Virus record (IMG/VR): IMGVR_UViG_3300021959_000342
Coordinates: 1 to 25,572 of that record
Reading direction: 5' to 3' (one strand)
Origin: a virus
Length of the DNA: 25,572 bases
Shown: positions 2-23,911 of the stretch, one piece after another
Layout of the letters: each line of letters opens with the position of its first letter
How positions within the stretch are numbered: the stretch's first letter is position 1
Position numbers and translations under genes: made by a program
Notes under the pieces: model-generated
Seen by the model: only the letters and a program-made list of their open reading frames with translations
The model's database searches: none
What the model was told of the DNA's origin: nothing

Positions 2-802
2 ACGGATCCTACAACACCTGGCGTACAGGAAAAAGACAAACAATTTATCACGGTGCAGGATCCAAAAGATAAAACAAAATACAACGTGGTAGATTCAGAA
101 ACACAGAAGGTAGTAGATGGTGGCGCAGGGCTTGATGCAGACGCAGCAGAAGAAATGCGTGACACTAAGAATGCTGAAGTTGTTTCACAGAAACAAGCAG
201 CAGATGGTGCCACAGACACGGATACAGCGTCAGCAAGCGGTGATGATACACAAACTGGTACAACTGACACCCAGACTGATACAACAACAGCACAGGGCAC
301 TGATAGCACAGCAACGGATACTGCTACATCTAGTGATACTACATCACAAACTGATACAACATCTAGTGATCAATCTGCTACAAGTGATAAGAGTTCAACA
401 AGTGATAAGAGTTCAACAAGTGATCAAACTTCTACAAGCGATCAATCTGCTACAAGCGATAAGAGTTCTGATCAAACCAGCACAAGCACAACAAGCACTT
501 CATCATCTTCTAATCAAGGTGGTAGTGGAGAAGGTGGAAGCAATACAAGCACTGATAGTTCGACCACAACAACAACATCTAATCAAGCAAGTGCAAACAA
601 TCAAGCAAGTGCAAACAATCAAGCAAGTTCAAATAATCAAGCAAGTTCAAATAATCAAGCAAGTGGTTCTCAACAGGCTACGTCACAAACATCATCTACC
701 AAGGTTGATGTTAAGACGGTCGCAAAAAATATTAAGACAGCCGGACCCAAGGTTACAATGGATGTAAGAGCCGCACTTGAAAAGGAAGTAAAGGCAGCGT
801 AA
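2..802 (+). CDS. Low-complexity Ser/Thr/Asp/Asn-rich protein, 5'-truncated by window edge
   Basis: The frame is open to the left edge, so this is the C-terminal part of a longer gene; a GTG at 53 is in frame but has no ribosome binding site, so I do not take it as the start. The visible protein begins with a short folded-looking stretch (KYNVVDSETQKVVDGG) followed by a predicted helix. About 150 residues of Thr/Ser/Asp/Gln/Asn-rich repeats follow (TSDKSS and NQASAN hexapeptides), then a charged tail ending ALEKEVKAA. The next gene overlaps its stop by one base (TAATG), which indicates translational coupling. I do not recognise the family. Its position beside hub and tape-measure genes suggests a baseplate or tail protein, and a gp5-type hub protein is possible but unsupported. 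The repeat region would act as a flexible linker. Confidence 0.75.
   Translation, partial: TDPTTPGVQEKDKQFITVQDPKDKTKYNVVDSETQKVVDGGAGLDADAAEEMRDTKNAEVVSQKQAADGATDTDTASASGDDTQTGTTDTQTDTTTAQGTDSTATDTATSSDTTSQTDTTSSDQSATSDKSSTSDKSSTSDQTSTSDQSATSDKSSDQTSTSTTSTSSSSNQGGSGEGGSNTSTDSSTTTTTSNQASANNQASANNQASSNNQASSNNQASGSQQATSQTSSTKVDVKTVAKNIKTAGPKVTMDVRAALEKEVKAA
362..469 (+). repeat. Six degenerate 18-nt tandem repeats
   Basis: Six consecutive 18-nt units encode variants of TSD(K/Q)S(S/A). The units at 380-397 and 398-415 are identical (ACAAGTGATAAGAGTTCA); the others differ mainly by GAT-CAA versus GAT-AAG. The array is in frame and lies inside the low-complexity protein. Confidence 0.85.
581..665 (+). 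repeat. 18-nt tandem repeats encoding NQAS(A/S)N
   Basis: About 4.7 copies of an 18-nt unit (AATCAAGCAAGTGCAAAC and a variant with TCAAAT) start at 581, 599, 617, 635 and 653. The first two copies match each other, and the third and fourth match each other, which suggests recent stepwise duplication. Confidence 0.85.
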
Positions 803-1059
803 TGAGAATCGGCGAATTACTCGAAAACGATCCATTTAAAGGTATAAAGGATTTTGCTGCAAACTTTAAAAAAGGCGCTGAAGAAGTAACTGGAAAATCT
901 CCTTCTAGACAAACTGCTGTAAAAAAATCCAGTCCCTTTGACAGATATAAAAAAGAAGATTTGAGAGATATGTTTAAGAAAATTATTAATAAAGAAGAAC
1001 TAGACCCTCAAGAAATAAAAATAGCCAAAGAGCTGTATAGAGAGTTTAATAAATTTTAA
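802..1059 (+). CDS. Small basic protein of unknown function
   Basis: An 85-residue, Lys-rich, mostly helical protein. Its ATG overlaps the TAA of the upstream gene by one base, so it is probably translated by re-initiation. The N-terminus (MRIGELLENDPF) looks like a short amphipathic helix. A basic middle with Ser/Arg/Lys follows, then a predicted helix pair (KKEDLRDMFKKIINKEEL). I see no signal peptide or membrane segment. It ends converging on the leftward gp26/gp51 unit, with 4 nt of stop-to-stop overlap. I do not recognise the family; its coupling to the repeat protein suggests a shared structural or assembly role. Confidence 0.7.
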   Translation: MRIGELLENDPFKGIKDFAANFKKGAEEVTGKSPSRQTAVKKSSPFDRYKKEDLRDMFKKIINKEELDPQEIKIAKELYREFNKF

Positions 1060-1259
1060 AAGAAAGGCATTCCGCTTTTCTTTGTTGTTTCTAAATTTTC
1101 CTTAATGATTTCAGAAATAATTTCGCGTTCCTCATAACTCATATTCATGACTTCAGAATAAGAAAGACCTCTCATAAACCAACTGAGTTTGAGGACGTCC
1201 TTCTTTATTCCCCTGGCCTGTTTATCGAGTTCATCAGATTCCTGCAAAATCTCCGGCAA
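1056..1259 (-). CDS. 51: gp51-position hub-assembly/tail-chaperone-like small ORF, probably read by -1 frameshift
   Basis: A 67-residue ORF directly downstream of the gp26-like gene, the same place gene 51 holds after gene 26 in T4. Residues such as KLSWFMRG, SYEEREIISEII and ETTKKSGMPFF resemble short gp51-like or tail-assembly proteins of marine T4-like phages, as I remember them; this was not searched. The only start at its 5' end is a TTG with no ribosome binding site. The frame is open upstream to 1316 and is -1 relative to the gp26 frame, so it is more likely the C-terminal extension of a frameshifted gp26 product than a free gene. It is far shorter than T4 gp51, so the name rests mainly on position. 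Confidence 0.6.
   Translation of the reverse strand: MPEILQESDELDKQARGIKKDVLKLSWFMRGLSYSEVMNMSYEEREIISEIIKENLETTKKSGMPFF
1059..1083. terminator. Possible bidirectional terminator between convergent genes
   Basis: A 10-bp stem (AAAGAAAGGC / GCTTTTCTTT, with one G-U pair) and a 5-nt loop lie exactly where the rightward and leftward transcription units meet. T-rich sequence follows on both strands (TTTTCTTT on +, TTTCTTTT on -). Part of the stem encodes the last residues of the leftward small protein. The stem is A/T-rich, so it would be a moderate terminator. Confidence 0.45.
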
Positions 1260-1292
1260 GGAGAGGTTTAAGATTTTGCTGCGAAAAAATTT
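1244..1292 (-). promoter_or_regulatory. Predicted -1 programmed ribosomal frameshift site
   Basis: Read on the minus strand near the end of the gp26-like gene, the zero-frame codons are TCA AAT TTT TTC. They contain overlapping slippery heptamers A-AAT-TTT and T-TTT-TTC (1292-1283). Three nucleotides later a perfect 9-bp stem begins: GCAAAATCT (1279-1271) pairs with AGATTTTGC (1252-1244) around an 18-nt loop that holds the zero-frame stop. A -1 slip on T-TTT-TTC enters a frame that stays open to 1056, giving a fusion of about 373 residues. The spacer is shorter than the usual 5-9 nt, so efficiency is uncertain. Confidence 0.6.
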
Positions 1293-2176
1293 GATTGATC
1301 CATTGTGATCGGCATATTAAATTCTCCACCACAATCTCCACACTTAACGTCCTTTGATTTAAATTCAATTTCACCCTTGATATCCTTAAGATGATTTTGA
1401 ACTGCATCAAATGTTTCCTTACCGCAATTGTTTATGAATTCTTTAATCATTGCAATGTCAGTAACTGTTCCTTCTGGAGTTTCAATCTTTGTTATACAGT
1501 CAGCAATAATATCAACTGTAAGTTCTGTTAGTTTAACAAAACTCTTACCAAATTTATCTAACTTTTCCTCATCTGAGAGTTTATCGTCGTTGATAGTTTG
1601 GAACACTCTCTGCTGTTCCATGGTCTTAATTGATGTCTTTGTAAGTTCCTGATAATTGTATGGTCTCAATTGTACAACTAGTGGATCAATTTTTACATAC
1701 TCATTGTATGAAAATCTATCCAAATCACCAATCCAACTTGTCAAATCAACATCATAGTTTTGTTCTTCTGAGCAGTGAGGACACTTAACTGTAACTTCCA
1801 TCTTGTTTCCATATGTTGCAACTCTAATAGCAACTAACAGGAAGTCCAAGTCTAACGAAGGCATCTTCCACGGATCAATTATTGCTGGAACACAACTCTT
1901 GATAACTTCTACAGTGCTTTGCCCTGTTAGCAGTGCATCAGGAGTCTTAAACATAAGCTCATCCTTTGCTGTCATTGCATATACAGCATATTCTCCGTTT
2001 GTGCTTACATCTAATGCACCATCGGGATAGAATTTTCCACCTGATGGCAGTTTTACATAAATTTTTGGCTGCCTGAAATACCCTGCCAACGGGTTCCTTT
2101 TAGCCGACTGATTTACCGTTACGGTCGGCTGAACATCAGTTAGTTCAGGCGCAACTGATTTTTGATTTTCGTCCAT
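1268..2176 (-). CDS. 26: gp26-like baseplate hub/assembly protein with zinc-ribbon-type Cys pairs
   Basis: A 302-residue protein of the T4 gp26 baseplate type (Pfam T4_baseplate, recognised by eye). In T4, gp26 is needed for assembly of the central hub. The N-terminal 30 residues are polar; a compact domain then starts near KIYVKLPSGGKFYP. Two Cys pairs, CPHC (C132/C135) and CGDC (C279/C282), could bind one zinc. The start ATG follows a clear GGAG at 5-nt spacing and sits about 29 nt downstream of the inferred start of a perfect TATAAATA late promoter. The C-terminus is short (NFFAAKS) and overlaps a -1 slippery site, so two products, 302 and about 373 residues, are likely. It is longer than T4 gp26 (about 208 residues). 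Confidence 0.75.
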   Translation of the reverse strand: MDENQKSVAPELTDVQPTVTVNQSAKRNPLAGYFRQPKIYVKLPSGGKFYPDGALDVSTNGEYAVYAMTAKDELMFKTPDALLTGQSTVEVIKSCVPAIIDPWKMPSLDLDFLLVAIRVATYGNKMEVTVKCPHCSEEQNYDVDLTSWIGDLDRFSYNEYVKIDPLVVQLRPYNYQELTKTSIKTMEQQRVFQTINDDKLSDEEKLDKFGKSFVKLTELTVDIIADCITKIETPEGTVTDIAMIKEFINNCGKETFDAVQNHLKDIKGEIEFKSKDVKCGDCGGEFNMPITMDQSNFFAAKS

Positions 2177-2245: not shown

Positions 2246-4975
2246 ATGGCTAAAGTTGAAATTGATGTACCCGGAATAGGCTTAATTGAAGCCAAAAATG
2301 CAGCATCCGAATCTACCCTAAGAGAATTGGTTAATTTAATGAAGAAGGGTGGCGGCGGAGGCGGCGGAGGATCTGGCGGAGGATCTGGAGGCAGCGGCAG
2401 CGGCCGTGGAGGTGGTGCAGCAGATAATACCCAAAAGGCTGGACAGGCCATGGGTAAATTGTGGGGACATTCCAAACTACTAATAGGAAGTTTCAGCAAG
2501 TTATCCGACACTGTGGTAGAAACCCTAAGTAATTTTGCCAATGTTGGGGATTCGGTTGAATCTGCAGCACGAATATTTAATGGTATTCCTATAATAGGAC
2601 CCATGCTTGGTGCTGCTGCGTCAGCGGCAACAGCAGTATCTGATGCGTTTGTTAAAGCATCGGGCAGCGGCGCAAGTTTCAACGGTAGTGTTGTGCAAAT
2701 GACTCGTGCAGCAGGAGAAGCCGGACAGACTCTTGATCAGTTTGCGAGCTTTATTTCCAGCAACGGCGAAGCAATGGTTGCACTGGGTGGAACCACGGCA
2801 GACGGTGCAAAGAGATTTGGCGCACTATCAAAAGCATTACGATCCAATGCAAGTGATCTATATGGATTAGGATATTCTACTTCTGATCTAAATGAAGGTA
2901 TCGCAGCATACGCTACAAACTTACGTATTCTTGGTCGTAATGAAAACATGTCCAACAGAGAGCTAGTAGAAGGTTCTAAGTCCTATCTAAAAGAAATGGA
3001 CATGCTGGCTAAAATCACTGGACAGACTAGAAAAGAAAAAGAAGAAGAAAGAAAACAGTTAATGCAGGATATCAAGTATCAGGCATTTGCTAGCCAATTA
3101 AGTGAGAAGTCACAAAAAGAATTACAACTATTGATACAATCCTATCCTGCAGAACTACAAGGTTTTGTTAAGGATGCTGTTATGTCAGGTACGCTTACAA
3201 TGGAAGCAAACCAGAAACAGGCGCATGCACTTGGCGGAACAATGAATCAGATTCTAGGTATCAGACAAAAACTATTAAAGGATGAAAGGGTTGGGGATAA
3301 CATTATCCAAGGTGCTCTAAACACAACCAAAAGCGAAACACAAAAATTTATAGCATCTAACAGACAGGCAATCATTGGTAATGATGAGTATGCACAGTCA
3401 ATGCAAGGTGTTGTTGCAGGTAACAAGATTCAGACGGATGGTGTATTAAAGGCTAGACAGGCACAGGATCAGGCTGCTGCTGAAACTGATGGTATGAACG
3501 AGCAGATGCAATTGGCAAAGGCAGAACTTGCTAACTTTAGTAACCAATTCCAACTAGCATTGGCTAACACAGGATTAATTGATCTACTAATGAATGCATT
3601 TAGAACCGTGGGTACATTCCTGTTAGAAAATATTGTGCCTATATTCCAAGTATTTGCATTTGGTGTTACACAGGTAGGAAATTTCCTCATAGGTGCATTC
3701 CAGACGGCTATGAGCGCAGTGTCCGGATTGATAACCAATGTTGTATATCCGGCATTCCTCACTCTGGCTCTTTGGATTGACACCTATGTCAAACCAGTAT
3801 TCCAGTTCTTGGGAGAAATGATTCAAACCTATGTGATGCCGGTCTTCGAATATCTCGGAGGACTCATCAATACCTATGTTGCACCAATATTTGAAGGCGT
3901 AGGCGGATATCTAAATGATGTGCTTATACCGGTTCTGGCAGGAACAATGGGAGCATTTGCAGCCTACAAGATTGCAATGTTTGCCAAGACTGCGGCAACT
4001 TGGTTAGCATCTGGCGGATTGTTTGCTGCGGCTGGCGCTGCATGGGCACTTGTGTCACCTCTATTAGTAGCGGCAGCACCATTCATAGCAATTGGTGCAG
4101 CGGTTGCAGGACTCATATGGGCATTTAAAAAATTGTATGATGCAGGATTTTCCGTTGGTGATGTTCTCCAAGGCATGGGAGACTTCTTCTATAGATATCT
4201 AATGATGCCATTGAAGGAACTGTTCTTTAAGATTCAAAGTTCGTTACCCGGTTGGCTAGGTGGCCTTAGTGACGAAGAAGCGGAAATCAAGAGAAAACAA
4301 CTTGATGAAGAGTACAAGGAATTGGATGACAGGAAACTGGCAAGAGATCAGAGAAAAGAGGAAAGGAAAAAACAGAGATCCGAAGAAAAGGAAGAAACCG
4401 CGACCAAGGCGGAACAACAAGGACTAACCGTAGAAGAATACAAACTAAAACAGATGGATCTTAAACTTAAGAACCAGATGAATGGTATCACAACCAAAAC
4501 TGCGGTTGGATACAAAAAGGTTAGCAAACAAGAACAAGAAGTGATTGATGCCAAAAGCAAGACTGCCAAAACTTTCATGGATAATCTTCCAAAAGAAAAA
4601 GATTACAGCAACACGCTTCAAACCCTGGGGCAGGAATTAAAGGCTGCTAATAGTTCAATAATTTCTCCAAAAGATAAAACCAAATCGGCAGCACCTTCGA
4701 CTTCAAGTGTCCAAACCACAATTACCAAACCTGGAGAAACTGCCGATAAAACTGCAACTACGGACGCTCAGGGTAATGAAACCCAAACGGGTGGAGGCGG
4801 CACCAAAACTGCTTCTAACCAAACCACTTCTGAAGAAGGAAACATATTTATAGAGTTAAATAATAACGTGGTACAACTGGTAAGACTTACTAATCAACAA
4901 TTAGCAGTCCAAAATCGAACGAACCGTTCGATCCAAGACTTGGCTGGTGTTGGTAATTTGTTAAAGAACGTATAG
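2246..4975 (+). CDS. 29: Tail tape-measure protein (gp29-like)
   Basis: A 909-residue protein with tape-measure architecture: a short N-terminal domain (MAKVEIDVPGIGLIEAKN), a Gly/Ser tract at about 35-58, and a long helical body. Hydrophobic, membrane-segment-like stretches span about 440-660, and charged coiled coil lies at about 680-760. A polar low-complexity linker precedes a C-terminal helix ending VGNLLKNV. Residues 511-555 form three 15-residue repeats (IDTYVKPVFQFLGEM, IQTYVMPVFEYLGGL, INTYVAPIFEGVGGY). Such proteins fill the tail tube, set its length and leave at DNA ejection. In T4 this role belongs to gp29 (590 residues), and the adjoining gp26/gp51 unit fits. No strong ribosome binding site is seen, only GGA about 10 nt upstream. 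Assignment to gp29 rather than another tape-measure lineage is inference. Confidence 0.72.
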   Translation: MAKVEIDVPGIGLIEAKNAASESTLRELVNLMKKGGGGGGGGSGGGSGGSGSGRGGGAADNTQKAGQAMGKLWGHSKLLIGSFSKLSDTVVETLSNFANVGDSVESAARIFNGIPIIGPMLGAAASAATAVSDAFVKASGSGASFNGSVVQMTRAAGEAGQTLDQFASFISSNGEAMVALGGTTADGAKRFGALSKALRSNASDLYGLGYSTSDLNEGIAAYATNLRILGRNENMSNRELVEGSKSYLKEMDMLAKITGQTRKEKEEERKQLMQDIKYQAFASQLSEKSQKELQLLIQSYPAELQGFVKDAVMSGTLTMEANQKQAHALGGTMNQILGIRQKLLKDERVGDNIIQGALNTTKSETQKFIASNRQAIIGNDEYAQSMQGVVAGNKIQTDGVLKARQAQDQAAAETDGMNEQMQLAKAELANFSNQFQLALANTGLIDLLMNAFRTVGTFLLENIVPIFQVFAFGVTQVGNFLIGAFQTAMSAVSGLITNVVYPAFLTLALWIDTYVKPVFQFLGEMIQTYVMPVFEYLGGLINTYVAPIFEGVGGYLNDVLIPVLAGTMGAFAAYKIAMFAKTAATWLASGGLFAAAGAAWALVSPLLVAAAPFIAIGAAVAGLIWAFKKLYDAGFSVGDVLQGMGDFFYRYLMMPLKELFFKIQSSLPGWLGGLSDEEAEIKRKQLDEEYKELDDRKLARDQRKEERKKQRSEEKEETATKAEQQGLTVEEYKLKQMDLKLKNQMNGITTKTAVGYKKVSKQEQEVIDAKSKTAKTFMDNLPKEKDYSNTLQTLGQELKAANSSIISPKDKTKSAAPSTSSVQTTITKPGETADKTATTDAQGNETQTGGGGTKTASNQTTSEEGNIFIELNNNVVQLVRLTNQQLAVQNRTNRSIQDLAGVGNLLKNV
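4914..4932 (+). repeat. Perfect inverted repeat near the 3' end of the tape-measure gene
   Basis: ATCGAACG and CGTTCGAT form an 8-bp stem with a 3-nt loop, 41 nt before the tape-measure stop. No T tract follows, so it is unlikely to be a rho-independent terminator. Confidence 0.6.
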
Positions 4976-17935: not shown

Positions 17936-20900
17936 ATGGCAGAGTTTAAAATAAGTCGAATTAGATATACCTGGAAAGGTGCATGGGGTCAATCAATAGC
18001 CTACCAAAGAGACGATGTCGTTTCTATTGGTGGATCAAGTTATGTCTGTCTCATAGGACATACCGCAGCAGCAAATTTTTACGATGATCTTTATTTTATT
18101 CCTCCGGGCGATACTGCTCCAACTCCAAGATGGGTAAAAATGACAGATGGCTTCTACTTTAGAGGCGACTGGCAAACTGGTACCGCATATGGCTTAGGTG
18201 ATGTTATTGTAGAAGGTGGAAAACTGTATCTCTGCACAGTGGCACACACTTCACATTCAACGGCATTTAGAAATGATTCAAGCAATTGGACTACATTTGC
18301 AAACTCAGAAGGATGGGCTAATGAATGGGCACCAGCAACAAATTATGAAGTTGGCGATTTAGTAAGATGGGGTGGAATAGTTTATAAATGTAAATCCGGT
18401 CACCTTTCAAGTTCTAACTCACAAGGATTATATGGTCAAATATCATTCTGGGACAACTACATCATTAATGTTGAATGGGTTGATTTTTGGAGACCATCAA
18501 TACTTTACAAGACTAACGACCTAGTAAGATACCAAGGTACTCTTCATAGATGTACTGATCCTCATACTTCAACAGCAACCTTTGATGCTACTAAATTTTC
18601 AGTTGAACTGCTTGGTAGTGAATATGAATCAACATGGAATTCAGACTCCTATTATGGAATAGGTAGCGTTGTTCAATATGGTGGATATCTATATCGTGCT
18701 AATTTTTCTCACTCTGCAAATGATTCAGGACATGATCCAATTAATTCAATCTATCAAGCAGAAGGAAATCCTGCTTGGTCAATACTATCCAAGGGAAATA
18801 ACTGGAGAGGTGTTTGGTCAGCAGCCAATACATACAAGACTGGTGACGTCGTAAGACGTGGTGGTAACTTATATGTTGCTATCCTAGACACGGTTGATGA
18901 CGGAAGTACTCTTGATTATCTGGATGCTTCTAACTGGGAATTAATTCTAGAAGGACAAAATTATGCTGGTACTTGGACTAGCGGCACAACATATTCATTG
19001 AATGATGTTGTTGTTTTCAAGGGTTCAACTTATAAATCAAACATTGAACACACAGCAGCAACTGATAACTTTCCTGGAGATAACGGTAGCGGATATAACT
19101 ATTGGGATCTATTAATCCAAGGTGACGAATTTGGTGCGCTGGATACGCAGGGACAACTATTAACATATGGTTTAAGTAGATCCGAAGTTGGTGATGGATC
19201 AACGCTAGGAACTGTAGGATTAGAAATTGGTAACCAAGGACAGGTATTAAGTGTTACTCCAACTTCAACTGCTGGCTACAGAACATTTGCACAACAACCT
19301 AGACAATTTTATGTGTCACCGAACGGAAGTGATGACTACGATTTACCGGTACCTCAATATATTAGAAAGGTAGTAACAACAACCTACAGAGAAATTCAAC
19401 AACCATCAGGATTACCTACGATAATCATTAATGACGATGGCTATTATTATGTTGATGGAGAAAGAAATCCAGCCATAACATTAGAAAGAGGAAATGTTTA
19501 TATATTTGATCAATCTGATGCAAGTAACAAACCACATCCTTTGTATTTCTCAGCAGATAATTTCAATGGATTACTTGCAGGCGGAACTGAATACGGTATT
19601 AATGTTACCTATAAGATTGAAAACGCAATAGTGAGTTTTGCAGATTATGTTGCATCGTTCTCAGGAGCAACACAGCGTTCAGTAGAAATTTATACAACAT
19701 CAAATACTCCGACAACTGTCTGGTATGTTTGTTACAGTCATTTGAATATGGGTAATGCAATTACCTTAATTGACAATACAGCAAATATTGGTGGTACTCT
19801 TTTCAAACCATTTAGAACTGTTAGATATGCTCTAGAAAGAGCAGATGACGGATACACTGGAAACACTACCATTCATGTTGAAACAGGATTATTTCAAGAA
19901 ACACTTCCTATGATTGTTCCGGCAAAGACTGTCGTTCTTGGCGCGGAATTAAGAAGCACAGCAATCAAGGCGGCACCAGCAGTCGCAGCCTTATCAGATG
20001 ATGCACAATACACCATACTGTCTCTTACTAGAATTAAGAACTTAATGTCAGATGTATTGCAAGGAAATGCAATTACCAAATCAACCAGCAATGCAGAAAA
20101 TCCTGTAGTGATTATAGAAGGCACTGGTGGTCAAAAATTATTAGTTGATAGCAACACTGTAACTGCTGTTAGTGATTTGATTGATGATGCAATTCAGTAC
20201 ATTAATTTCTATGTGAATAGTACTGGAAGTGATGTTACTGTTACTAGTAACAATACAAAAATTACAAATCTTGAAAAACTAAACACTGTAAGAATGCTTC
20301 TAACTAATAGAACATTCTTTGAAAAAGAAGCAGTTGCATACATGCAGGACAACTTCCCTGACTATGCATTCGATGGAACACGCTGTGCTAGAGATATGAG
20401 AAAATTCATAGATGCATTTGCGTATGATGTTTCGTATCCAGGAAATTACAAAACAATAATGGCAGCAAGATTATACAAAAATGCTGTGTTGGGTTCTGCA
20501 GGCGAAGACATGTTCTATCTAAGAGATGCTACAGGATTAAGAAACTGTACCCTAACAGGACTAACGGGTGCGCTTAACCCACCAAATGTTTTTGATCTTT
20601 ACAGAAGACCAACAGGAGGATCTTTCTGTTCATTGGATCCAGGTTGGGGTCCAGCAGATAATAGAACTTGGATTAACACACGTTCGCCATACATTCAAGG
20701 TGTTACCACAATTGGTACAGGATGTGTTGGTCAGAAGATTGATGGCTTCCTACACAACGGCGGAAACAAATCAATGGTGTCCAATGACTTTACTCAGGTA
20801 TTGAGTGATGGTATTGGTGCATATGTTCTTAACGGTGGTAGAGCGGAACTAGTTTCAGTATTCACATATTACAATCAAGTAGGTTATCTAGCAGAAAATG

Positions 20901-23900
20901 GTGGTATAATCAGAGCAACGAATGGTAACTGTTCATATGGTAGATTTGGTGCAATTGCAGATGGAATTGACGACACAGAAACTCCAGCCACTGCCTCAGT
21001 AAATGGTAGAACTGGAGAAGCAACAGTTGATGGTGCATTTTCAGGAGATTTCTCAGGAACTATTAAACTTGTTGAATATCTAAATGCCGGCAATGACTAC
21101 TACACTGCAACAGCATCCATAATTGGTTCTGGAGCCGGTGTCCAAGCGGTTATGGATGAATTCCGTGATAATGCCGTGTTTGAAGCAAGGTTACAGGATG
21201 CCAGCGATTCAACCATATTGGTTGGTGGTGGTGGATATGTTACCGTTGCTGGTAACGCACAGGTTAGTTTGTCCGGATTTGATGACACTCTTGGAATTAC
21301 GATTAGTACTGCTGATAGCCAATCAGAACCTGCATACATTGGAATGAGAATTCTAATTACGAGTGGTACTGGTACTGGTCAGTATGGTACGATTACTGCA
21401 TATAATATTTCTAACAAGCAGGTACTTGTTAAGAGAGAATCAGACGGAGTGGTAGGATGGGATAACGTGGTACCAGGAACACCTGCGGTAACACAGTTTG
21501 ATACATCTACCTCGTATGTGGTTGAACCAACTCCACAATTTACTGCTCCTGAATATTCAGCAACCAACGTTGAAGTTGATACTAGTGCAACATGGAACGA
21601 TGTCATATACTCAGAAACATCAAGAGTATATTCAAACGTTTCGGCTTCCCTAGGTACAGGAAGTGTTGTTGAGGATGATGGACTTGTGGCAACCGGTGCA
21701 AGATTTAATGTAACGAGATCAGGAAGAACATACACTGCCGTAACATTAGTCAATGGTGGTGCCGGCTATGCAGTGGGCGACTCGGTTACAATTAGTGGTG
21801 CTGCTCTTGGCGGTGAAGTAGTAACGAATGATGTTACCATTAAGGTAACGGCAATTTCCGATGATAGTACCAACTCCATAGTTTCATACACGTATTCAGG
21901 TTATCCTACTAGTGGAACTTTTATTGCGGTAGCAACAGGAAGTGCTACAGGACTTCGTTCAACCAATGGAGAAACATGGTCATCATTCACAATGCCAAGT
22001 GCAGGTGAGTGGTTCCTATCCAGAGGGAATAACAGAATTATTGCTGTAAGAGGTGGTACCACAAATGGTGCATATACTGATGATGGACTTACATGGACAA
22101 ACACCACACTACCAGCAAGCACATTGTGGAACGGTGTTACATATGGTAATGGAGTGCATTTAGCAATTTCTAGTTCATTGACCAATACCGCTGCATACAG
22201 TATTGATAATGGAGAAACATGGACATCAACTACATTACCAACAATCGGTGATTCAACAAACAATGAATGGCAGAAAGTTGCATATGGTGCAGGAAAATTT
22301 GTTGTAGTTGCTAATTCAAATAACGTTGTTGCAACGGGCGAGTACAATAGTTCCACGGATACATGGACATGGGCCGGACACGTAATGGATGTGATTGACG
22401 ATTCATCACAGAAAGATTGGATTGATGTTGAATATGGAAACAATAGATTCGTAGCAGTATCCACACAGGGAGATGTTGCTTACTCATTTGACGGAGAAAC
22501 TTGGTATGGTGCAACTTTACCAACACAGGACGGTTCAACTGCACACAATTGGAGAAGAATCTCATACGGTCAGGGAGTATTCTTTGCTGTTGGTACCACG
22601 GGTGGTAGAGATGTTGGAGGAATACCAAACACTGGCGGTCCATCAACGTTTGCTGCAACATCATACGACGGTATAGTTTGGACAACTAGACTACTTGCCA
22701 GTGAAAGAAATTGGGAAGCAGTTGCTTTTGGTAATCCTTACATTCCGGGAGAAGATTCAACAGTCATTGGAAGAACAGGAACTTGGGTTGTGGTTGCAAC
22801 AGGAAATAGATTCCAAAAAGTTCGTGCTGGTGCAACGGCAATGGGAAGAGTATCAATAACATCTGGTAGAATTGCCAAAATGAAATTATGGGAACCGGGT
22901 TCGGGTTACCAAGCATCACCCACTCTTACACTAGTTGATCCTTCGAATACATCGGATGCAATCTTCGACTGTAGAATTGGTGATGGTGTATTGGGACAAC
23001 CAACATTCACAAACAGAGGTACAGGGTACAAATCATCAACGACAAGAGTTACAATAACAGGAAGTGGATATGCTGATACGTATGCTGTTGGTAAATTTGT
23101 TACAGTAAAAGGATTAGTATCTTATCCAGGTCCTGGTGCTCAGCTCACATTCAATGGTGAGGATCAGATATATACCATGGTAAGCATCACTGAACTTGGT
23201 GAAAATTATCTAGGCGAAACTGGTTTCTCAGCAACCTTAAGAGTATCACCTCAAATTAAAGTAAGAGACAATTTTGGTCATGATACTGTTCTAACAATTA
23301 GAGAGCAGTATTCACAATGTAGAATTACTGGACACGATTTCCTAGATGTGGGCACAGGAAATTTTGAGGAAACCAACTATCCAACATTATATGCAACTGG
23401 ATTATACACACCTGCTCCTGAAAACGAAGTTATTGAGGAAACAGGCGGTAAAGTGTTCTATACATCCACTGACCAAAGTGGTAACTTTAGAACTGGAGAA
23501 TTATTTGCAGTTGAACAGGCAACGGGTATCGTTACAATTAGTGCTGATTTCTTTGACTTATCAGGATTGACAGAACTAAGACTTGGCGGTATTAGAGTTG
23601 GTGGTTCGGGTGTTATCATTAGAGAGTTTTCAACGGATCCTTTATTCACTGAAGACTCACCTAACATCATACCAACACAGAGATCTATTGCTGCCTACTT
23701 GGCTAATAGATTAAGCATCGGTGGATCGGAATTAACAACGACAAGTTTTATTGCAGGTAATGTGTTGGTAGGACCAGCATTAATTAACAACGTGTTATCA
23801 ACAGCGGTAAGATTGCCAAAAGTGGCAAAATTTGAGGGAGATAAAGCACAGATAGACGGATCAATACTGGCACAATCAATGTTCCATAGATCTTTCGACA

Positions 23901-23911
23901 ATGGGTTTTAA
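17936..23911 (+). CDS. Giant tail fibre/spike with W-rich repeats, cupredoxin-like insert, beta-helix and Asp-box repeats
   Basis: A 1991-residue fibre. Residues 1-395 hold seven repeats of the pattern W-x-G-x-W ... Y-x-x-G-D-V-V-x-x-G-G-x-x-Y ... H, like CBM5/12 carbohydrate-binding modules. A linker leads to YVSPNGSDD (459-467). A cupredoxin-like insert follows (about 485-607; H534, C599, H602, M605). GTLFKPFRTVRYALERA then opens a beta-helix (about 620-1030). A GAGYAVGDSVTISG domain lies near 1275. Five Asp-box-like strands (such as STNGETW, TDDGLTW, SFDGETW) with YGNG motifs span about 1325-1620. Conserved fibre-tip-like sequence (TSTDQSGNFRTGELFAVEQ, LSGLTELRLGGIRVGGSG) runs from 1840. 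It probably binds glycans on the host surface and may degrade them; no catalytic pair was identified. Confidence 0.82.
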   Translation: MAEFKISRIRYTWKGAWGQSIAYQRDDVVSIGGSSYVCLIGHTAAANFYDDLYFIPPGDTAPTPRWVKMTDGFYFRGDWQTGTAYGLGDVIVEGGKLYLCTVAHTSHSTAFRNDSSNWTTFANSEGWANEWAPATNYEVGDLVRWGGIVYKCKSGHLSSSNSQGLYGQISFWDNYIINVEWVDFWRPSILYKTNDLVRYQGTLHRCTDPHTSTATFDATKFSVELLGSEYESTWNSDSYYGIGSVVQYGGYLYRANFSHSANDSGHDPINSIYQAEGNPAWSILSKGNNWRGVWSAANTYKTGDVVRRGGNLYVAILDTVDDGSTLDYLDASNWELILEGQNYAGTWTSGTTYSLNDVVVFKGSTYKSNIEHTAATDNFPGDNGSGYNYWDLLIQGDEFGALDTQGQLLTYGLSRSEVGDGSTLGTVGLEIGNQGQVLSVTPTSTAGYRTFAQQPRQFYVSPNGSDDYDLPVPQYIRKVVTTTYREIQQPSGLPTIIINDDGYYYVDGERNPAITLERGNVYIFDQSDASNKPHPLYFSADNFNGLLAGGTEYGINVTYKIENAIVSFADYVASFSGATQRSVEIYTTSNTPTTVWYVCYSHLNMGNAITLIDNTANIGGTLFKPFRTVRYALERADDGYTGNTTIHVETGLFQETLPMIVPAKTVVLGAELRSTAIKAAPAVAALSDDAQYTILSLTRIKNLMSDVLQGNAITKSTSNAENPVVIIEGTGGQKLLVDSNTVTAVSDLIDDAIQYINFYVNSTGSDVTVTSNNTKITNLEKLNTVRMLLTNRTFFEKEAVAYMQDNFPDYAFDGTRCARDMRKFIDAFAYDVSYPGNYKTIMAARLYKNAVLGSAGEDMFYLRDATGLRNCTLTGLTGALNPPNVFDLYRRPTGGSFCSLDPGWGPADNRTWINTRSPYIQGVTTIGTGCVGQKIDGFLHNGGNKSMVSNDFTQVLSDGIGAYVLNGGRAELVSVFTYYNQVGYLAENGGIIRATNGNCSYGRFGAIADGIDDTETPATASVNGRTGEATVDGAFSGDFSGTIKLVEYLNAGNDYYTATASIIGSGAGVQAVMDEFRDNAVFEARLQDASDSTILVGGGGYVTVAGNAQVSLSGFDDTLGITISTADSQSEPAYIGMRILITSGTGTGQYGTITAYNISNKQVLVKRESDGVVGWDNVVPGTPAVTQFDTSTSYVVEPTPQFTAPEYSATNVEVDTSATWNDVIYSETSRVYSNVSASLGTGSVVEDDGLVATGARFNVTRSGRTYTAVTLVNGGAGYAVGDSVTISGAALGGEVVTNDVTIKVTAISDDSTNSIVSYTYSGYPTSGTFIAVATGSATGLRSTNGETWSSFTMPSAGEWFLSRGNNRIIAVRGGTTNGAYTDDGLTWTNTTLPASTLWNGVTYGNGVHLAISSSLTNTAAYSIDNGETWTSTTLPTIGDSTNNEWQKVAYGAGKFVVVANSNNVVATGEYNSSTDTWTWAGHVMDVIDDSSQKDWIDVEYGNNRFVAVSTQGDVAYSFDGETWYGATLPTQDGSTAHNWRRISYGQGVFFAVGTTGGRDVGGIPNTGGPSTFAATSYDGIVWTTRLLASERNWEAVAFGNPYIPGEDSTVIGRTGTWVVVATGNRFQKVRAGATAMGRVSITSGRIAKMKLWEPGSGYQASPTLTLVDPSNTSDAIFDCRIGDGVLGQPTFTNRGTGYKSSTTRVTITGSGYADTYAVGKFVTVKGLVSYPGPGAQLTFNGEDQIYTMVSITELGENYLGETGFSATLRVSPQIKVRDNFGHDTVLTIREQYSQCRITGHDFLDVGTGNFEETNYPTLYATGLYTPAPENEVIEETGGKVFYTSTDQSGNFRTGELFAVEQATGIVTISADFFDLSGLTELRLGGIRVGGSGVIIREFSTDPLFTEDSPNIIPTQRSIAAYLANRLSIGGSELTTTSFIAGNVLVGPALINNVLSTAVRLPKVAKFEGDKAQIDGSILAQSMFHRSFDNGF

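Follow-up and report, generated by a model that had tools for sequence, protein, structure and literature searches.

Analysis of the window, that is the whole stretch of 25,572 bases of a virus record that carries a T4-type portal gene (PF07230, E 3e-108), revealed that gene 26 of this T4-like giant phage is most likely subject to programmed -1 ribosomal frameshifting. On comparative grounds this conclusion is close to certain, although it is supported by sequence comparison alone, with no experiment or peptide behind it; that frameshifting takes place in the cell, and at what rate, is inferred. The best joint explanation of the results, to which we give a probability of roughly 0.88, is that gene 26 gives rise to two proteins by a programmed -1 frameshift, that these proteins are likely a tape-measure/hub chaperone pair and that this old arrangement was replaced in T4. 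Most ribosomes would stop at the TAA at 1268 and produce gp26 of 302 amino acids, and some would slip by -1 on U UUU UUC (1289-1283), presumably assisted by the stem, and would read 75 further codons to produce gp26 extended by a gp51-like C-terminal domain, a protein of about 373 amino acids. The tape measure protein would then be covered by many short copies, with a few long copies recruiting the next component, as for lambda gpG/gpGT. On the T4 branch, a first gene copy would have stayed short (gp26) and a second copy would have become an in-frame fusion (gp51). Full-text searching, limited to open-licence papers, turned up no description of frameshifting in gene 26 of T4-like phages.

The features of the locus are shown in Table 1. 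Assignment of positions 1268-2176 as gp26 is firm at the level of profile similarity, with matches to Pfam T4_baseplate PF12322 (E 5.8e-19, 69.1 bits against a curated cut-off of 24.5) and to phrog_150 (E 7.9e-24); the AlphaFold2 model of this protein has a pLDDT of 83. The 3' end of the gene on the minus strand reads ...ATG GAT CAA TCA AAT TTT TTC GCA GCA AAA TCT TAA. Two overlapping heptamers are present here, A AAU UUU (1292-1286) and U UUU UUC (1289-1283), and both fit X XXY YYZ because the gp26-frame codons are AAT-TTT-TTC. The loop of the downstream stem is 18 nt long and its first letters are the zero-frame TAA (1270-1268). From 1316 to its stop at 1058-1056, the -1 frame stays open for 86 codons and overlaps gp26. 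Translation after a -1 slip gives NFFRSKILNLSLPEIL...GMPFF, with NFFRSK as the junction peptide. Inspection of the sequence found no ATG or GTG upstream in the -1 ORF of the window; the sole start-like codon ahead of the conserved region is a TTG at 1259. The window satisfies the criterion of a frameshift cassette, namely an X XXY YYZ heptamer in frame before the zero-frame stop together with an overlapping -1 ORF. The first-pass annotation had placed the heptamers at 1292-1283, followed by a 9-bp stem with the stop in an 18-nt loop and by a -1 frame open from 1316, and all of these coordinates were reproduced.

Table 1. Features of the gene 26 locus and its divergent neighbour in the window.
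Feature	Position	Strand	Remarks
Gp26-like zero-frame gene	1268..2176	(-)	302 aa, putative short product; PF12322 / phrog_150; two CxxC pairs
Slippery run A AAU UUU UUC = AAATTTTTTC	1283..1292	(-)	Read from the sequence; T6-C-G invariant in 55 aligned relatives
Constrained heptamer U UUU UUC	1283-1289	(-)	Kept across relatives
Zero-frame gp26 stop TAA	1268..1270	(-)	4 codons past the heptamer in the window
Stem 5' arm GCAAAATCT	1271..1279	(-)	Begins 3 nt past the heptamer
Stem 3' arm AGATTTTGC	1244..1252	(-)	Perfect 9-bp pairing with the 5' arm
-1 frame continuation FFRSKILNLSLPEIL...GMPFF, gp51-C-terminal-like domain	1056..1289	(-)	Coding selection, AlphaFold2, homology
Unproven candidate for the tape measure protein	2246..4975	(+)	Divergent neighbour, 909 aa

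The best 80 of 358 IMG/VR relatives, with 58-79% amino acid identity, were used as the window-clade set. The in-frame site and the -1 frame were found in all 80, and the -1 ORF ends about 212 nt past the gp26 stop except where contigs end earlier; the distance from heptamer to stop varies between 2 and 6 codons. Among 55 aligned representatives of this clade (<90% nucleotide identity), T TTT TTC G showed no variation. The second phenylalanine codon is TTC in 55/55 of them, against 17% of phenylalanine codons elsewhere in the same genes, and elsewhere in these 55 genes just 4 of 16,792 codon positions carry an in-frame T TTT TTC. The same choice of TTC is repeated in Kyanoviridae (41/41 representatives against 145/469, or 31%, of phenylalanine codons elsewhere) and in distant lineages, for example PhiW-14. 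Counts of TTC and of the heptamer are phylogenetically non-independent. Judged from these counts, the presence of the heptamer at the end of gene 26 exceeds chance, beyond what amino acid and codon preference would give. The first-pass annotation had named two overlapping heptamers. Both are indeed present, but they are not of equal weight and U UUU UUC is the constrained one: A AAU UUU is destroyed in L052 (GGATTTTTTC) and in L055 (AAGTTTTTTC) and U UUU UUC is intact in both, and U UUU UUC is therefore the likely working site. The case for A AAU UUU as an active heptamer is weakened by the same two variants.

Analysis of the -1 frame past the overlap in 49 window-clade sequences gave pN 0.167, pS 0.766 and a median dN/dS of 0.15, with variation peaking at the third positions of the -1 frame. 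By this pattern of substitutions the -1 frame is coding and under purifying selection. The AlphaFold2 model of the window -1 domain (pLDDT 91.4) is compact and all-helical and begins at the junction.

RNAalifold found no consensus structure on the window-clade alignment, and the stem was assessed through pair counts and folding energies instead. Across 52 distinct sequences, 90.6% of the 468 cells of the 9-bp stem are paired. The covariation score is 0.226 compared with 0.122 +/- 0.012 after shuffling (0/500 shuffles) and at most 0.097 when the stem is slid; the pair 18-45 is represented by GC in 33 sequences, AU in 17 and GU in two, and is never unpaired. Mean folding energy of the 45 nt downstream is -10.85 kcal/mol in the window clade versus -5.29 kcal/mol for windows within gp26, and the same comparison in Kyanoviridae gave -11.0 versus -5.5 kcal/mol. 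S-PM2 has a downstream stem of 13-14 bp (z -7.7), and strong structures were also found in P-HM2, Atu_ph07, S-SRM01 and PA5oct. No clear structure was found downstream of the heptamer in RaK2, PHA46, BF and Asswx_1, and the stem of the window itself has a z of merely -1.4. The sequences of the stem differ between lineages, and the structure is therefore kept as a tendency and not as one element. Textbook -1 signals have a spacer of about 5-9 nt between heptamer and structure; it is 3 nt in the window. This short spacer and the RNAalifold result were counted against a classical stimulator. Despite both, the criterion of a downstream stimulatory structure appears to be met by the covarying stem and its lower energy compared with the controls.

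Comparison of named phages revealed the same anatomy in 13/13 annotated jumbo-phage loci (PA5oct, Atu_ph07, RaK2, PHA46, CBB, 121Q, SCTP-2, Phosso, Vibrio 2.275, RAS14, XaC1, BF and GAP32), RAS14 having the variant heptamer U UUU UUU. The gp26 proteins of the RaK2/PA5oct/Atu_ph07/121Q type are the closest named relatives; they share the heptamer and their -1 domain is homologous to that of the window. They differ in that the -1 domain is mostly unannotated or given as a short hypothetical protein, and in downstream structures that vary by lineage. In Kyanoviridae, the site and a conserved -1 ORF were found in 80/80 loci. The site is also present in P-HM2, Melnitz-2 and S-SRM01, in KVP40, PC-Liy1, Asswx_1 and Aeh1, and in Delftia phage PhiW-14, Stenotrophomonas phage YB07 and Agrobacterium phage OLIVR6. 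A search of the named phages at the DNA level gave no matches. The first-pass annotation had left conservation of the slippery site, the -1 offset and the stem to be checked; all three are kept in the window clade, and the site and offset are kept in many other T4-like lineages. None of 12 T4-type phages (T4, 44RR, AM101 and nine further loci) has the heptamer within the final 60 nt of gene 26, and it is missing from Maynard (Ackermannviridae) and Vibrio phage K493 (Ackermannviridae-like). The latter two still carry, behind gp26, a -1 ORF that weakly resembles the gp51 domain or phrog_634. The gp26 stop of K493 shares letters with an ATG (TAATG), and this overlap suggests translational coupling as a possible second route to expressing the -1 domain.

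The -1 domain is unannotated in the records of RaK2 (NC_019526), PA5oct (NC_071039) and Aeh1 (NC_005260), it is absent or cut short in that of Atu_ph07, and truncated hypothetical proteins are annotated in its place in GAP32, CBB, PHA46 and others. The unannotated -1 ORF of Aeh1 matches phrog_634 (baseplate hub assembly catalyst) with E 2e-14. Gp26 of cyanophages and KVP40 resembles that of the window in its heptamer (there one codon before the stop), in its continuing -1 domain and often in a strong stem-loop. The published genomes differ in annotating two genes, gp26 and a short gp51, and the annotated order in cyanophages is 26-51 in tandem. Gp51 of cyanophages and vibriophages was described as lacking the first approximately 200 residues ("significantly reduced", unexplained) and as absent only in Aeh1 (Sullivan et al. 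2010, PMC3037559); the text of that study makes no mention of frameshifting. A frameshift would account for both the truncated cyanophage gp51 and the "missing" gp51 of Aeh1 (PMC3037559), and annotations in which the -1 domain is absent or cut short are hereby corrected for PA5oct, RaK2, Atu_ph07, Aeh1 and others.

The first-pass annotation had linked the small ORF to gp51 from the adjacency of T4 genes 26 and 51. That argument fails, since the two genes are adjacent in T4 but divergently transcribed and gene 26 is followed by gene 25; the link itself is upheld by a chain of profile comparisons. Direct comparison of the window -1 domain with T4 gp51 gave no match (hhalign 0.9%), and its identity as gp51 therefore rests on the chain from the window through jumbo phages to Kyanoviridae. 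The window -1 domain matches the jumbo-phage -1 domains (hhalign 99.5%, E 3.6e-22), and the fused jumbo products match the fused Kyanoviridae/KVP40-type products (98.9%, E 1.5e-17) in an alignment that runs through the junction; jumbo and cyanophage -1 domains alone gave just 24%. The fused Kyanoviridae/KVP40-type products in turn match Teven gp51 over 233 columns reaching the C-terminus (99.3%, E 4.9e-20), and the Teven gp51 and gp26 profiles match each other (99.1%, E 4.4e-19). Alignments of several gp51 and gp26 sequences were used here because hhalign gave too weak a signal when the fused profiles were compared with T4 sequences taken singly. Kyanoviridae/KVP40-type -1 domains alone match gp51 (hhalign 96.7%, E 3.1e-10), at residues 198-248 of T4 gp51 (E 8.9e-7 for T4 and 2.7e-10 for 44RR). 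The Kyanoviridae/KVP40-type HMM of the -1 domain places 12 gp51 sequences higher than any of the 2,000 shuffled ones and does not pick up gp26. An independent public profile, phrog_150, is in agreement: it is covered at 14-235 by T4 gp26, at 13-280 by T4 gp51 and at 231-281 by the cyanophage -1 domains, and the domain boundary therefore coincides with the slip site. Overall, these profile comparisons support, by way of intermediates, the correspondence of the window -1 domain to the C-terminal domain of gp51.

Gene 26 of T4, 44RR and AM101 leads into gene 25, and these phages encode gp51 at full length in a divergent gene. T4-type gp26 and gp51 (Tevenvirinae, Twarogvirinae and 44RR) resemble the window products in that gp26 corresponds to the short form and gp51 aligns colinearly with the fusion, its C-terminal domain included. 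They differ in being encoded by separate, divergent, paralogous genes without a slippery heptamer. The residues FF are retained in 7/12 T4-type gp26 proteins, written TTC TTT; the C-terminus of T4 gp26 itself is still KEFFELL, and its TTC TTT is not slippery. In the tree of gp26 domains, T4-type gp26 and T4-type gp51 each form one group and together stand opposite all frameshifting lineages (91/86, below the starred level, unrooted). As far as profiles and tree allow, T4 gp26 can be equated with the short product and its paralogue gp51 with the frameshifted one. The frameshift arrangement is probably old in T4-like phages, and duplication appears to have replaced it on the T4 branch, giving a short gp26 and an in-frame fusion gp51; the direction of this change is inferred. 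The reverse direction, in which a frameshift arose repeatedly from fused genes at the same codon, is less economical and is not formally excluded. We consider it probable that T4 is no exception to tail-chaperone frameshifting: a single gene in the ancestor of the T4-like phages would have yielded both gp26 and a gp26-gp51 fusion through -1 frameshifting, a mechanism that would persist in cyanophages, KVP40, Aeh1 and RaK2-type jumbo phages; the essential gene 51 of T4 would then be a duplicate with the fusion fixed in one frame.

The -1 ORF could also be read as a small gene in its own right, whose translation would begin at an internal start past the gp26 stop through re-initiation or coupling; the U run would then be incidental. 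An ATG or GTG does occur within the first 15 codons of the -1 frame in 26 of 68 distinct window-clade loci and in 45 of 65 Kyanoviridae loci, annotators have called short ORFs from such codons, and the overlap in K493, which has no heptamer, is of the kind expected. However, the positions of these starts vary and the heptamer is constant down to a disfavoured phenylalanine codon; conservation starts at the slip codons themselves. ATG, GTG and TTG are all absent throughout the -1 ORF of PA5oct, and in 42/153 distinct loci in five groups the stretch that begins at the preceding stop and extends 15 codons beyond the slip contains no start codon. As a general route, re-initiation is therefore excluded. 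A separate coupled gene, which we regard as improbable, is ruled out as a general reading by the startless PA5oct and may hold in Ackermannviridae. Slippage of transcription on the T6 run is somewhat less probable again: it would yield a frameshifted message, and a one-base slip would give an identical protein, but productive slippage usually involves eight or more T and a run of six is short. Selection maintains TTC even though TTT, the codon otherwise preferred, would make the run longer (exceptions are RAS14 and Melnitz-2), and a covarying downstream stem suits ribosomes better. Nothing was found to support a sequencing error or the decay of a single gene into two frames, and both can be practically dismissed; error is refuted by the identical break and site in 153 distinct loci from many independent assemblies, isolate genomes included. 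The first-pass annotation had named two observations in relatives that would refute frameshifting, an uninterrupted frame, or a clear ribosome binding site and ATG for the small gene together with no conserved slippery run. Close relatives showed neither an uninterrupted frame nor a conserved start codon; the lack of an uninterrupted frame therefore excludes a homopolymer error.

With programmed ribosomal frameshifting as the preferred reading, the function of the two products remains to be considered. A tape-measure-chaperone role of the short and long pair is likely; it is inferred by analogy, with no biochemistry. The frameshift that produces lambda gpG/gpGT, and its counterparts in other long-tailed phages, were reportedly described by Xu, Hendrix and Duda; a review is PMC5009743. 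Gene 26 resembles this system in a short and a rarer C-terminally extended product, predicted to arise by -1 frameshifting close to the end of a small tail gene, in a -1 ORF without need of its own start and in a heptamer that is kept while the proteins diverge. It differs in that gp26 (PF12322, with zinc-ribbon-like CxxC pairs) has no detectable similarity to known tail assembly chaperones, in that the candidate tape measure gene of the window is divergent, and in that its lineage is the one reported as "except T4". G-T frameshifting is widely conserved in long-tailed phages with that stated exception, gpG coating the tape measure protein and gpGT recruiting the tube protein (Atkins et al., PMC5009743). 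A standard review counts T4 gp26 and gp51 among the hub assembly chaperones and describes gp51 as an essential protein that is not part of the particle and whose function is unknown (PMC3004832), and tape measure protein assembly chaperone is the annotation of gp26, gp51 and gp28 in the record of Acinetobacter phage AM101. The chaperone role is the leading inference because of these three sources, and the functional idea is partly not new since the AM101 GenBank record already names gp26 and gp51 in this way. It is possible, if rather unlikely, that the frameshift is real and its products serve in baseplate hub assembly or remain as hub parts of the virion, with no chaperoning of the tape measure. 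The description of T4 gp26 and gp51 as hub or hub-assembly proteins with an unknown function for gp51 (PMC3004832), the annotation of gp26 as a structural protein in CBB and the divergent, not downstream, candidate in the window agree with a hub role, whereas the AM101 annotations and a short/long architecture that is a hallmark of tail assembly chaperones (PMC5009743) speak against it. If the chaperone reading holds, much of the T4-like world would fall under the tail-chaperone frameshifting rule, with a suggestion of why T4 differs, and T4 gp51 would gain a testable role as a GT-like form.

Of the features of a G/GT module, the presence of a short and a frameshift-extended version of a single small tail-assembly gene is satisfied on anatomy and conservation, the expression of both being inferred; a tape measure gene directly downstream on the same strand is not satisfied in the window. 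The 909-aa candidate has hydrophobic segments at 491-509 and 590-628 and shares its divergent position with RaK2 ORF088, annotated as similar to tape measure protein; it had no Pfam or NCBIfam match. Fold searches of the gp26 and -1 domain models against the PDB gave no significant match, the best chaperone being 2ob9 (HK97) at E 2.3, and no Pfam chaperone family was matched in the window. A large gene, whose identity is not established, follows on the same strand in PC-Liy1 and S-PM2.

The S-PM2 gene after gp51 (L177:1857-3998) overlaps gp51 and encodes an ADP-ribosyltransferase-like domain (PF01129, E 4e-6) together with a long part of unknown function; its product could be a virion or tape-measure-like protein. 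Comparison of the gp26 model with BFVD (E <1e-3) identified matches in Bacillus phage SP-15, Campylobacter phage CP220, Leptospira phage LE4, Ralstonia phages RSL1 and RP12, Pseudomonas phage PaBG and Erwinia phage Special G; several of these distant matches are uncharacterised. Elsewhere in the window, an ORF near the start of the record (53-802, plus strand) has a high content of S/T/Q/D/N and contains NNQAS and SDKSST as repeat units, and an 85-aa ORF (802-1059, plus strand) with a weak, below-threshold match to DUF1128 is convergent with the -1 ORF and overlaps it by 4 nt. An ORF of 1,991 amino acids (17936-23911, plus strand) has N-terminal repeats of the form W..T.Y..GD.V..GG..Y.C..H, and its product is probably a tail fibre or adhesin.
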